This document shows positions 9,312-11,509 of a stretch of DNA of 11,509 nucleotides, piece by piece (within the stretch, counting starts at the first letter, position 1; the number at the start of each line of letters is the position of its first letter). The stretch spans positions 1-11,509 of the forward strand of contig JAUIDL010000018.1 of NCBI GenBank assembly GCA_030428585.1, given 5' to 3'. Under the pieces are notes generated by a model, which worked only from the letters and a program-made list of their open reading frames with translations, ran no database searches and was not told where the DNA came from. A program made the translations under genes and the position numbers. The DNA is from a bacterium (GTDB taxonomy: Bacteria > Patescibacteriota > Saccharimonadia > Saccharimonadales > Saccharimonadaceae).

Positions 9312-9747
9312 ATGAGCGATACTCAGCCAGAAGTCTTTCCGACTCCAGAGCATGTGACTGAAAAGAGTCAACTTCGGGCTGAAGACTATGTGGGCGCACC
9401 AGAGAAATTATTAGAAGACCTGCGTGAAAAAGGTGCGATGACATTTGATGCTTTTGCGAGCGGGATGTTTCCGGCTAGCGAACTGACGCCTGAAATGGCG
9501 GAGCAAACGGGGATGGATTTGGCGTGGTTTCGCGACAATGCGCATGTCGCCAATGCCTTGTACGAATCGGACGAACCGGCGGAACACGCCATGGGGGTTC
9601 TTCTTTTTCTTGGCCTATATTGGTGCTGCGATTTATTTCATTTCAACGTCAAGCGGTAGCTTTTGGGAGGTGATTCTTGGTTTGTTGCAGGCGGCTGTCT
9701 GGCCAGTTTACGTGATTTATCACGTACTTGTGTTACTTGGCGCGTAG
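9312..9747 (+). pseudogene. Small membrane protein split by a +1 frameshift in a G5 run
   Basis: The frame from ATG 9312 reads a soluble N-terminal region (~95 residues, with EDYVGAPEKLLEDLREKGAM and MDLAWFRDNAHVANALYESD), then runs out of sense at 9659 with a Trp/Cys/Phe-rich end. A second frame ending at TAG 9745-9747 begins just where the first loses sense and encodes two hydrophobic segments (FFFFLAYIGAAIYFI and FWEVILGLLQAAVWPVYVIY). The switch point is GGGGG at 9593-9597. With four G the frames join as EHAMGFFFFLAYIG and give a 144-residue protein. The likely intact product is a cytoplasmic helical domain tethered by two C-terminal membrane helices; the function is unknown. The cause may be a homopolymer sequencing error, phase variation or true inactivation. 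The SET gene follows seven bases later. Confidence 0.7.
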
Positions 9748-9754
9748 CGTATTT

Positions 9755-10153
9755 ATGCAACAGATAGACCCCCTGTTCATGCTTCAGCCATCGATGATTA
9801 CCGAGGCTGGTATCGGGTGTTTCGCCGTGCATCCTATTGCTGCTGGCGCGCGGGTGATCGCACCAAATCCAACCGGACCGAACCGGCATCTAGAGCTTGA
9901 TGAGATACCACTTTCGCATCTCAAATATTGTCCGTTGATGGAGTCGGGCAAATATCTCGCGCCAGCAGATTTTAATCACATGTCGCCATTTTGGTACATC
10001 AATCACGACCGCGACCCCAATATTCGCGCCGAAGCGTGGCGGCTCTTTGCTGCGCGAGATATTGCCGCTGGGGAAGAGCTAACCCTTTACTACCCGGACC
10101 TGTTGACCCACCCGATGAACGCTCGCTGGGTCGTGCCCGAGTTGCACGTTTAG
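9755..10153 (+). CDS. Small SET-domain protein
   Basis: The 132-residue protein is essentially a bare SET domain, the lysine-methyltransferase fold that uses S-adenosylmethionine. Seen are the N-terminal GIGCFAVHPIAAGARVI (residues 19-35, family GxGhFAxxxIxxGxxI), the pseudoknot NHDRDPNI (N83, H84, N89; family NHxxxPN), and GEELTLYYPDL (106-116; family GEELxxxY). Bacterial stand-alone SET proteins exist and may methylate ribosomal or other proteins, but no substrate can be named. A Cys-rich post-SET segment is absent. The ATG at 9755 is chosen over a TTG at 9728 that lies inside the preceding gene; ATG 9779 is a shorter alternative. No Shine-Dalgarno is seen. The gene ends two bases from the stop of the oxygenase on the other strand. 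Confidence 0.85.
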   Translation: MQQIDPLFMLQPSMITEAGIGCFAVHPIAAGARVIAPNPTGPNRHLELDEIPLSHLKYCPLMESGKYLAPADFNHMSPFWYINHDRDPNIRAEAWRLFAARDIAAGEELTLYYPDLLTHPMNARWVVPELHV

Positions 10154-10155
10154 GC

Positions 10156-10794
10156 TCAGTCCCATCCGAGGCGCATTTGTCGGAGAGATACGGCGAGTCT
10201 TTTCTCTTGAGCTGGTGCTGCCCAGTGGCGTGGTCGTAGTTTGCCGCTAGGGTGACCATAGCCGCGCATAACAGCGAGACTTCCGGGTCGAAGGGGGATT
10301 TCATACGTTTCACCATCGTCCGACTCGACGATGAAGTTTTGGCGACCGGCAACAGTGACGACAGCGACAAAGCCGACCGCAGAGCTGTAGTCACGGTGTG
10401 GACCAATGTGATCACCAAATTCATACCGGATACCGGCAATTTCATTGGGGCGCCAGCTATGTTGTGTACCATCCTCCAGGTAGTTGTCGATGGCATGGGC
10501 GGCGGCATTGACCCCCGTAGGGGCACTCGGTATACCCGGTAGTGTCGGAGAGCCATTTGGCCGATGATAGGTGAAATAGGCCAGAGCGTGATGCCGTTCG
10601 ACTTTTGCGTTCGGTGTGCCGGCGTCGGTGACGTAATTGACGGTTGGTGATGAGAGATCGCGGGCTGCACGAGTGATGACTTCAGGTGCTAAAAAGTCGT
10701 GCACGATACAGGCGCCGTGTTCCGAGATGGTCGAAAGGACTTCAGGTGATGTTGTGGTCGAACGACCAAATTCGATTGACGAAAGAGTATTCAT
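10156..10794 (-). CDS. 2-oxoglutarate/Fe(II)-dependent oxygenase-like protein
   Basis: The 212-residue cytoplasmic protein has the iron-binding facial triad of the family: H133-R-D135 in HIGPHRDYSSAVG, a distal H190 in RPRHWAAP, and R199 in KRLAVSLRQ as the likely 2-oxoglutarate carboxylate ligand. Hydrophobic strands between them fit the double-stranded beta-helix (GFVAVVTVAGRQNFIVES, then LRPGSLAVMRGYG). Residues ~25-45 (SEHGACIVHDFLAPEVIT) match the usual 'oG-hhhh-dfl' start of such enzymes. The substrate is unknown: a small molecule, nucleic acid or protein is possible. The ATG at 10794 is preceded nine bases upstream by GGAG. That GGAG sits in the 3' arm of an inverted repeat, and a 19-codon open frame with a strong Shine-Dalgarno lies 60 bases upstream on the same strand, suggesting translational control. 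A TTG at 10809 would add five residues and overlap the Shine-Dalgarno. Confidence 0.85.
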   Translation of the reverse strand: MNTLSSIEFGRSTTTSPEVLSTISEHGACIVHDFLAPEVITRAARDLSSPTVNYVTDAGTPNAKVERHHALAYFTYHRPNGSPTLPGIPSAPTGVNAAAHAIDNYLEDGTQHSWRPNEIAGIRYEFGDHIGPHRDYSSAVGFVAVVTVAGRQNFIVESDDGETYEIPLRPGSLAVMRGYGHPSGKLRPRHWAAPAQEKRLAVSLRQMRLGWD

Positions 10795-10802
10795 ACTAAA
10801 AA

Positions 10803-10865
10803 GCTCCAAAATTATATAGTTGGAGCGACGGCATCGAAAGAGGGTAAAGCGTCGCTAAGAGACGC
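10803..10865 (-). promoter_or_regulatory. Chain of three mutually exclusive hairpins in the oxygenase leader (attenuator candidate)
   Basis: Read on the minus strand. Hairpin A pairs GCGTC (10865-10861) with GACGC (10853-10849). Hairpin B pairs AGCGACG (10856-10850) with CGTCGCT (10830-10824). Hairpin C pairs GCTCCAA (10826-10820) with TTGGAGC (10809-10803). A and B share 10850-10853; B and C share 10824-10826, so only A plus C, or B alone, can form. C contains the GGAG of the oxygenase. The end of the 19-codon frame and its stop overlap A and B. This is the layout of translational attenuators; the regulatory role is inferred. Confidence 0.5.
10811..10816 (-). promoter_or_regulatory. TATAAT inside the palindrome upstream of the oxygenase
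   Basis: On the minus strand a perfect TATAAT (10816-10811) lies in the 10-base loop between GCTCCAA and TTGGAGC. If used as a -10 box, transcription would begin within or beside the GGAG, leaving a leader of about ten bases. The palindrome would then act as an operator. This competes with the RNA-hairpin reading. Confidence 0.35.
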
Positions 10866-10914
10866 GACAACAGGCGAAGCCAGACCAGGTACAGATATGT
10901 TTGTTGTGTAGCAT
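10855..10914 (-). CDS. 19-codon leader peptide candidate upstream of the oxygenase
   Basis: The minus-strand ATG at 10914 is preceded by AAGGAGGA (10930-10923) with eight bases of spacing, the strongest Shine-Dalgarno in this part of the window. The frame encodes MLHNKHICTWSGFACCRVS and stops at TAG 10857-10855. Three of 19 residues are Cys, with a Cys-Cys pair four codons before the stop, plus one Trp and one Phe. A promoter-like pair lies just upstream: TAGTCA (10969-10964), 17 bases, TACACT (10946-10941). The oxygenase starts 60 bases downstream. Its size, strong ribosome site and overlap with alternative hairpins fit a regulatory leader peptide, perhaps one that senses cysteine or ribosome stalling. 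It could instead be a small functional peptide or chance. Conservation is unknown. Confidence 0.5.
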   Translation of the reverse strand: MLHNKHICTWSGFACCRVS

Positions 10915-10940
10915 TGTCAGACTCCTCCTTTTCTATTCGT

Positions 10941-10969
10941 AGTGTAGCCTAGTTGCAGGCGGCTGACTA
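10941..10969 (-). promoter_or_regulatory. Candidate sigma70-type promoter for the leader peptide
   Basis: On the minus strand TAGTCA (10969-10964; four of six to TTGACA) and TACACT (10946-10941; four of six to TATAAT) are exactly 17 bases apart. A start about seven bases on would give a ~20-base leader before the ATG at 10914. A short inverted repeat, CTAGT (10949-10953) with ACTAG (10966-10970), spans the -35 region and might be an operator. Confidence 0.4.
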
Positions 10970-11010
10970 GACGTATTGATGACGATTGTGCTGGATTTAT
11001 TCTCTGTTTG

Positions 11011-11019
11011 TGGTATGCT
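11011..11019 (+). promoter_or_regulatory. Extended -10 promoter (TGGTATGCT) for the RRM gene
   Basis: TG, one base, then TATGCT (11014-11019) matches the extended -10 form, which needs little -35 contact. Transcription from about 11026 would give a leader of ~117 bases before the ATG at 11143, long compared with the leaderless genes in this window. Confidence 0.45.
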
Positions 11020-11070
11020 AGTAGGAAGCAAGTGGTTACTCTTACCTCTCCGTTGCCAGTTTAGTCCTTT

Positions 11071-11122
11071 GTGCTAATCTTCACCGCGAGCAGAATGAAT
11101 GAAAACGCGAGCGAAGAAGCAC
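11071..11122 (+). promoter_or_regulatory. Nested hairpin in the RRM gene 5' UTR
   Basis: GTGC (11071-11074) can pair with GCAC (11119-11122), CTTC (11079-11082) with GAAG (11113-11116), and CGCG (11085-11088) with CGCG (11106-11109), stacking into one imperfect stem that ends seven bases before the Shine-Dalgarno AAAGGA (11129-11134). A 7-base direct repeat CGCGAGC at 11085-11091 and 11106-11112 is also present. Structured long leaders are typical of cold-shock RNA-binding protein genes; the regulatory role here is inferred. Confidence 0.4.
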
Positions 11123-11142
11123 ATAATGAAAGGATAACAATT

Positions 11143-11466
11143 ATGGCAATCAAACTATTTGTTGGAAGTCTCGCATACAGCGTTAACGACCAAGAACTAA
11201 ACGACTTTTTCTCAACAGTGGGAACAGTCGAAAGCGCAGTGGTCATCATGGACCGCGAAACTAACCGCTCAAAGGGCTTTGGCTTTGTTGAGATGTCTAG
11301 CGACGAAGAAGCGAAACAAGCAATTGAAAGCTTGAACGGTAAGGACCTTGGTGGTCGTACTGTTATCGTCAACGAAGCTCGTCCACGCGAAGAGCGATCT
11401 GACCGCCGACCAAGCAACGGTGGTGGCCGTTCATCTTTCGGTGGTAGCAGCTTCCGCCAACGCTAA
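11143..11466 (+). CDS. RRM-domain RNA-binding protein with Gly/Ser/Arg tail
   Basis: The 107-residue cytoplasmic protein has one RNA recognition motif at residues 1-80. RNP2 is LFVGSL near the start and RNP1 is KGFGFVEM near residue 44, both with the aromatic residues that stack on RNA bases. The domain ends GRTVIVNEARPRE. The last ~25 residues are Arg/Gly/Ser-rich (NGGGRSSFGGSSF). Short RRM proteins of this kind in cyanobacteria and other bacteria are often cold-induced and act as RNA chaperones (family knowledge). The ATG at 11143 has AAAGGA eight bases upstream; the frame is open further upstream from GTG 11071, but that stretch is the structured leader. A terminator-like hairpin follows 26 bases after the stop. 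The gene stands alone, so it is probably autoregulated or temperature-regulated through its leader. Confidence 0.93.
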   Translation: MAIKLFVGSLAYSVNDQELNDFFSTVGTVESAVVIMDRETNRSKGFGFVEMSSDEEAKQAIESLNGKDLGGRTVIVNEARPREERSDRRPSNGGGRSSFGGSSFRQR

Positions 11467-11492
11467 AGCGCTCTACTGAATAAGCAAAATAG

Positions 11493-11509
11493 CCTCCGAG
11501 TCTCGGAGG
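11493..11509 (+). terminator. Terminator-like hairpin after the RRM gene (cut by window end)
   Basis: CCTCCGA (11493-11499) pairs perfectly with TCGGAGG (11503-11509) around a 3-base loop, preceded by an A-rich stretch (AAGCAAAATAG). The window stops at the end of the stem, so the expected T-run cannot be seen. Confidence 0.65.

Follow-up and report, generated by a model that had tools for sequence, protein, structure and literature searches.

A conserved 19-codon leader frame and three competing RNA stems lie upstream of an oxygenase gene in two Saccharibacteria genomes, namely, that of the 11,509-nt stretch analyzed here as a whole (the window) and a second genome of the same genus (G182); all comparisons of the device are between these two loci. 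We propose that it is a ribosome-controlled translational attenuator upstream of the oxygenase that depends on a stall induced by the nascent leader peptide, a reading to which we give a probability of roughly 0.6. In broader terms, the conserved attenuator is probably real and belongs to a known kind of translational switch.

In the proposed mechanism, when no ribosome is on the leader, or when ribosomes reach its stop codon, the third stem (C) would form and hide the ribosome-binding site of the oxygenase, keeping the gene off. A ribosome that halts with roughly codons 12 to 16 in the P site would cover the 5' arm of the first stem (A) and leave the 5' arm of the second stem (B) mostly or entirely free. 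B could then form as the RNA emerges and would capture the 5' arm that C needs, allowing translation of the oxygenase. The cause of the stall would be the M-L-H-N-K-x-I-x-T-W-S-G-F sequence of the nascent peptide, possibly assisted by a co-signal (a small molecule or translation stress). If correct, this would extend regulation by ribosome-arrest leaders to Patescibacteria, i.e., to a candidate-phylum host with a reduced genome, and to an uncharacterised oxygenase family; it would also offer a new peptide-tunnel interaction for study, and its inducer would provide a handle on the purpose of the oxygenase.

Organization of the leader and its competing stems

On the minus strand, a weak promoter-like pair is followed by a strong Shine-Dalgarno sequence, the 19-codon frame, stems A, B, and C, and the start of the oxygenase, as listed here.

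10941..10969, minus strand: possible promoter, TAGTCA-17-TACACT, with 8/12 consensus matches
10923..10930, minus strand: leader Shine-Dalgarno sequence, AAGGAGGA; AAAGGAGG is at the corresponding place in G182
10855..10914, minus strand: leader frame of 19 codons, MLHNKHICTWSGFACCRVS*, with the ATG starting at 10914 and the TAG at 10857-10855
10869-10864/10855-10850, minus strand: stem A, 6 pairs with one G-U; 7 pairs in G182
10856-10850/10830-10824, minus strand: stem B, alternative to A and C, 7 pairs; 6 in G182
10826-10820/10809-10803, minus strand: stem C, which buries the GGAG, 7 pairs; 8 pairs with one mismatch in G182
10804..10807, minus strand: oxygenase Shine-Dalgarno sequence GGAG, beginning 13 nt before the ATG (12 nt in G182)
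10798..10802, minus strand: TTTTT behind stem C, terminator-like, with no counterpart in G182
10156..10794, minus strand: putative Fe(II)/2-oxoglutarate-type oxygenase of 212 aa with its ATG at 10794, the gene presumed to be controlled

The leader Shine-Dalgarno sequence, the short frame, and the three hairpins of the original prediction all lie where it had placed them on the minus strand. The stem coordinates likewise bear out its claims that A excludes B, that B excludes C, and that C sequesters the oxygenase GGAG: positions 10855-10850 are common to A and B, and 10826-10824 are common to B and C. Stem C of the window is GCTCCAA/TTGGAGC with a 10-nt loop. When the region from leader codon 12 to the oxygenase start was searched for gapless stems of at least 6 pairs with at most one G-U and loops of 4 to 40, the output was exactly three stems, A, B, and C. 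In the window, a mutually exclusive triple of this kind recurred in 1/3000 cases when the spacer was dinucleotide-shuffled and the leader left intact, and an equivalent triple was seen in 0/3000 when codons 14 to 19 were shuffled together with the spacer. With one mismatch permitted in C, the window itself was again positive, as was 1 of 2000 spacer shuffles. Over its entire 146 nt, the leader shows no unusual stability (z -0.99, with 33/200 shuffles equal or better). The part that spans A to C is more stable than its shuffles, both in the window (z -2.43, 4/200) and in G182 (z -2.64, 2/200).

The leader is presumed to be cotranscribed with the gene. The promoter-like pair at 10969-10941 that had been proposed for it is present but no better than what shuffled sequence provides (295/1000 as good), and the best pair of G182 behaves in the same way (293/1000). 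These best pairs stand 27 nt (window) and 24 nt (G182) from the leader ATG. A consensus promoter scan of 10100-11509 reported none on the minus strand.

Several neighboring genes of the window deserve mention in their own right. A gene for an RRM RNA-binding protein (PF00076; 11143-11463, plus strand) is divergent from the leader, with the intergenic region common to both, and one for a small SET-domain protein (PF00856; 9755-10150, plus strand) is convergent with the oxygenase. Two further plus-strand genes show apparent frame changes: a secreted-type gene (1713-2623), which appears split into two overlapping frames near 2110, and a small gene (9312-9747), in which the change falls near 9590-9600.

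Conservation of the device in a second locus

The oxygenases of the window and G182 are 46% identical, with their third codon positions identical at 26%, about the chance level, and the genes flanking the oxygenase in G182 differ from those in the window. Upstream of the G182 oxygenase, we found a leader, MLHNKRIRTWSGFVDRRSL*, equal in length to that of the window, preceded by a strong Shine-Dalgarno sequence, and with its stop equally placed relative to the stems; hence, the short frame is kept in a relative, as had been anticipated for a functional leader. Across leader codons 1 to 13, the two loci agree in 33/39 bases and 11/13 residues, and none of the 195 thirteen-codon segments of the oxygenase exceeds 28/39 bases or 10/13 residues. 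The resulting consensus, M-L-H-N-K-x-I-x-T-W-S-G-F, ends at F13; past it, in codons 14 to 19, a single residue of six is identical.

The stems are also maintained, with hand-marked arm blocks conserved in 8/8, 9/10, and 7/7 positions. Stems A and B are perfect in G182, where a U-G pair of stem A in the window becomes C-G. The loop of B has diverged in both length and sequence (19 nt in the window, 22 nt in G182), and both B arms are conserved. Stem C has been rebuilt in G182 with an A.A mismatch and extra outer pairs, such that the GGAG is buried again; thus, the expectation that A, B, and C would recur in relatives holds for the first two and requires one mismatch for the third. Under the strict stem rule, G182 yields 0 triples, whereas 3/3000 of its shuffles pass; with one mismatch permitted in C the triple is present in G182, as it is in 10/2000 of its spacer shuffles. 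Of the compensatory changes in relatives that the original prediction had called for, none is two-sided, the sole pairing-preserving change being the one-sided U-G to C-G replacement in A. Given that no pair is altered on both sides with the pairing kept, the stems display conservation rather than covariation.

Part of the constraint may act on the RNA, as third positions are conserved in leader codons 1 to 13 (identical in 9/13). One might thus consider a conserved RNA element, such as a riboswitch or a protein site, in which the open frame is incidental and its peptide irrelevant. Such an element would account for the degenerate codons for identical residues being unchanged in 6/9 cases in leader codons 1 to 13 versus 25/89 in the oxygenase, and for the leader Shine-Dalgarno region being able to pair with codons 10 to 14 in both folds; further, the leader part of G182 folds better than its shuffles (z -2.27, 3/200), and a SAM riboswitch precedes the genes of two distant oxygenase relatives. 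However, the corresponding part of the window folds no better than shuffled sequence (z -0.44, 57/200), Rfam models give no match up to an E value of 5 in 10770-11020 and none at gathering in the whole window, and the features conserved are those of a translated frame: start-to-stop frame, Shine-Dalgarno sequence, length, and stop, with 4 of the 6 base changes in codons 1 to 13 at third positions. We therefore regard a purely RNA-based element as unlikely.

Predicted effect of a ribosome on the leader

The footprint of a ribosome extends 15 nt beyond the first base of the P site. With this edge, and also with one of 12 nt, a ribosome was placed on each leader codon in turn and the RNA on its 3' side was folded. 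On a short transcript that ends before the 3' arm of C, the modeled formation of B without a ribosome is 0.52 in the window and 0.12 in G182. Given the 15-nt edge and a P site anywhere from codon 12 to codon 16, it increases to 0.87-0.92 in the window and 0.98-1.00 in G182; the 12-nt edge moves the B-freeing range to codons 13 to 17. At P-site codon 16, only 4 B pairs remain free, and codons 7 and 8 also raise B on the short transcript of the window (0.77-0.83). A ribosome on the leader stop codon, with the whole leader folded, leaves C at 0.96 (window) and 0.98 (G182). In this model, the RNA geometry appears to suit a ribosome halted with one of codons 12 to 16 in the P site, although the effect is not confined to these codons.

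When the full-length RNA is folded with codon 13 in the P site, C retains 0.81 in the window and 0.93 in G182, so that B does not prevail; the GGAG is still largely paired, its unpaired probability being 0.06 and 0.26, respectively, compared with 0.00 and 0.25 for RNA free of ribosomes. For G182, B on the full RNA further amounts to 0.42-0.57 at codons 6 to 8 versus 0.05 at codons 13 and 14. As C mostly survives a stall on the full RNA, the switch must be kinetic, working during transcription, or else the model is incomplete.

The original prediction placed the stall at Cys15-Cys16, a position that fits the modeled P-site geometry; however, these codons specify Asp-Arg in G182. Accordingly, the second locus supports the attenuator in its architecture, i.e., the leader, the three stems, and the buried GGAG, but not in its cysteine trigger. 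Amino-acid leader attenuators (Cys, Trp, and His) possess a leader frame with competing hairpins, and the device described here is alike in this regard but differs from them in having no conserved regulatory amino-acid run. An attenuator of that type would have the ribosome wait at hungry codons 15 to 17 (Cys-Cys-Arg in the window, Asp-Arg-Arg in G182), with charged tRNA-Arg as the shared signal and cysteine contributing in the window only. Arg17 is encoded by CGC in both loci, and a P site at codons 14 to 16 frees B on the short transcript, both of which would suit such a wait; but the CGC of codon 17 is required by stem A anyway, and the strongest conservation, that of codons 1 to 13, would be left unexplained. 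Moreover, the Cys codons are not conserved, being TGT TGT in the window and GAT CGT in G182, which rules out cysteine starvation as the shared trigger. Starvation is hence an improbable explanation; a nascent-peptide stall is preferred over it because the last codon of the conserved peptide, codon 13, falls within the modeled stall range, and because Cys-Cys is lost in G182.

A transcription attenuator, with C plus the TTTTT as intrinsic terminator and B acting against it as antiterminator, is more doubtful still: in the window the 7-pair stem C is directly followed by the T run, but this run is absent behind C in G182, which discards an intrinsic terminator as the shared mode and favors translational over transcriptional control, and a terminator scan does not report C, although that scan accepts loops no longer than 8 and C has one of 10 nt. 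Termination could nevertheless supplement the translational control in the window, as reported for vmlR (PMC9226507).

Relationship to known leader systems

Known examples of ribosome-arrest leaders come mostly from model bacteria and from resistance genes, and the conserved peptide is not known to resemble the erm leader peptides. Control of a ribosome-drug resistance gene, the hallmark of the erm and cat systems, is not what is seen here, as the gene is of an oxygenase type; erm leaders control a 23S rRNA methyltransferase, whereas this one would control an oxygenase in a candidate-phylum host. In the erm attenuators (e.g., ermCL-ermC and ermBL-ermB), an upstream leader frame is coupled to stall-dependent refolding of a hairpin that hides the downstream Shine-Dalgarno sequence (PMC5118997), and our device is like them in the upstream frame, the refolding logic, and the hidden Shine-Dalgarno sequence.

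Another parallel is toiL-topAI of Escherichia coli, in which an upstream open reading frame (uORF) responsive to translation stress makes the ribosome-binding site accessible in a gene unrelated to drug resistance (PMC12121999). The gene and the organism are different here, and conservation of the peptide points to a single, specific site of stalling. The vmlR leader couples a uORF stall to anti-antiterminator, antiterminator, and terminator conformations, a logic paralleled by A, B, and C (PMC9226507), and the uORF stall is also common to the msrD leader (PMC10314930). Both of these leaders use an intrinsic terminator, which distinguishes them from the present device with its nonconserved T run. 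Among the matches listed from the open PMC literature, the titles and abstract openings mention no such leader for Saccharibacteria, Patescibacteria, the candidate phyla radiation, or this kind of enzyme.

The downstream oxygenase

By fold and a weak Pfam match, the product of the downstream gene appears to be a 2OG-Fe(II)-type oxygenase. The match is to the AlkB-type family PF13532 and lies below the Pfam gathering threshold (E value of 0.00041; 21.1 bits versus 31.2); this family is matched by 15/23 members of the oxygenase family at E values of ≤0.01. The 50 entries listed in the VIA-align structure table are all titled prolyl hydroxylases, with no AlkB among them, and the nearest folds include the Pseudomonas putida prolyl hydroxylase, which has also been solved with EF-Tu. 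A PDB sequence search with the oxygenase returned nothing at 0.01, and its matches up to an E value of 10 are a mixture that includes okaE, ausE, PrhA, Schizosaccharomyces pombe P8A3.02c, and ALKBH7. NCBIfam models gave no match to the protein. A far more speculative proposal, which we consider decidedly improbable, is that MLHNKxIxTWSGF is a new Saccharibacteria arrest peptide sensing either ribosome state or a small molecule within the exit tunnel, with the oxygenase acting on the translation apparatus and thereby forming a feedback loop on translation.

Phyletic distribution of the leader and the oxygenase

A search for the leader pattern that tolerated 2 mismatches at most recovered it from 2/198 genomes of the family, those of the window and G182, both of which carry the oxygenase. 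A pattern running from WSGF to the A/B arm was found in the same two of 17 genomes of the genus; the leader pattern and the oxygenase occur together in these 2/17, and neither was found in the other 15. As the leader is present in these two genomes despite different flanking genes, the device goes with the oxygenase and not with the place.

Protein searches recovered at least 25 oxygenase relatives besides the protein of the window (22, then 3 from 8000 scored candidates), one of which, P0002, is nearly identical to the G182 oxygenase; a further protein search returned only the oxygenase of the window. With the genome of the window included, the oxygenase was found in 4/198 family genomes and 7/392 class genomes, at an E value of 1e-6 in 4/394 family genomes, and at 1e-15 in 1/379 phylum and 2/392 order genomes; these samples overlap, and the matches other than G000 and G182 are distant. 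Of two scans of genome contigs for the oxygenase, the first gave none and the second gave one locus, L013, which is that of G182. Protein scans of viral contigs for the oxygenase gave none, and pattern scans of them for the leader gave 0 and, in another case, 1 chance match (L017, at the start of a longer frame); the phages and plasmids searched yielded no matches.

Among the distant relatives, the 5' sides of L003 and L016 were read and contain no such leader, nor does the ORF table of L004, where 28 bases separate the gene from a divergent frame; those of L007 to L010 and L012 were covered by the Rfam scan. A gap-free match between the N-terminal extension of another relative, P0022, and the region preceding the oxygenase of G182 was rejected, with 2/19 residues identical and 5362/20000 shuffles as good.

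Upstream of the oxygenase relatives in L003 and L016, which derive from genomes of the same order, we observed SAM riboswitches (RF00162) at L003:2126-2236 (minus strand) and L016:1340-1449 (plus strand), with scores of 47.6 and 48.7 bits, respectively, against a gathering threshold of 44.4. Their presence before these genes raises the possibility that RNA-level control of such oxygenases has more than one origin. Each of the two relatives also adjoins a folE-like gene, so named by eye.
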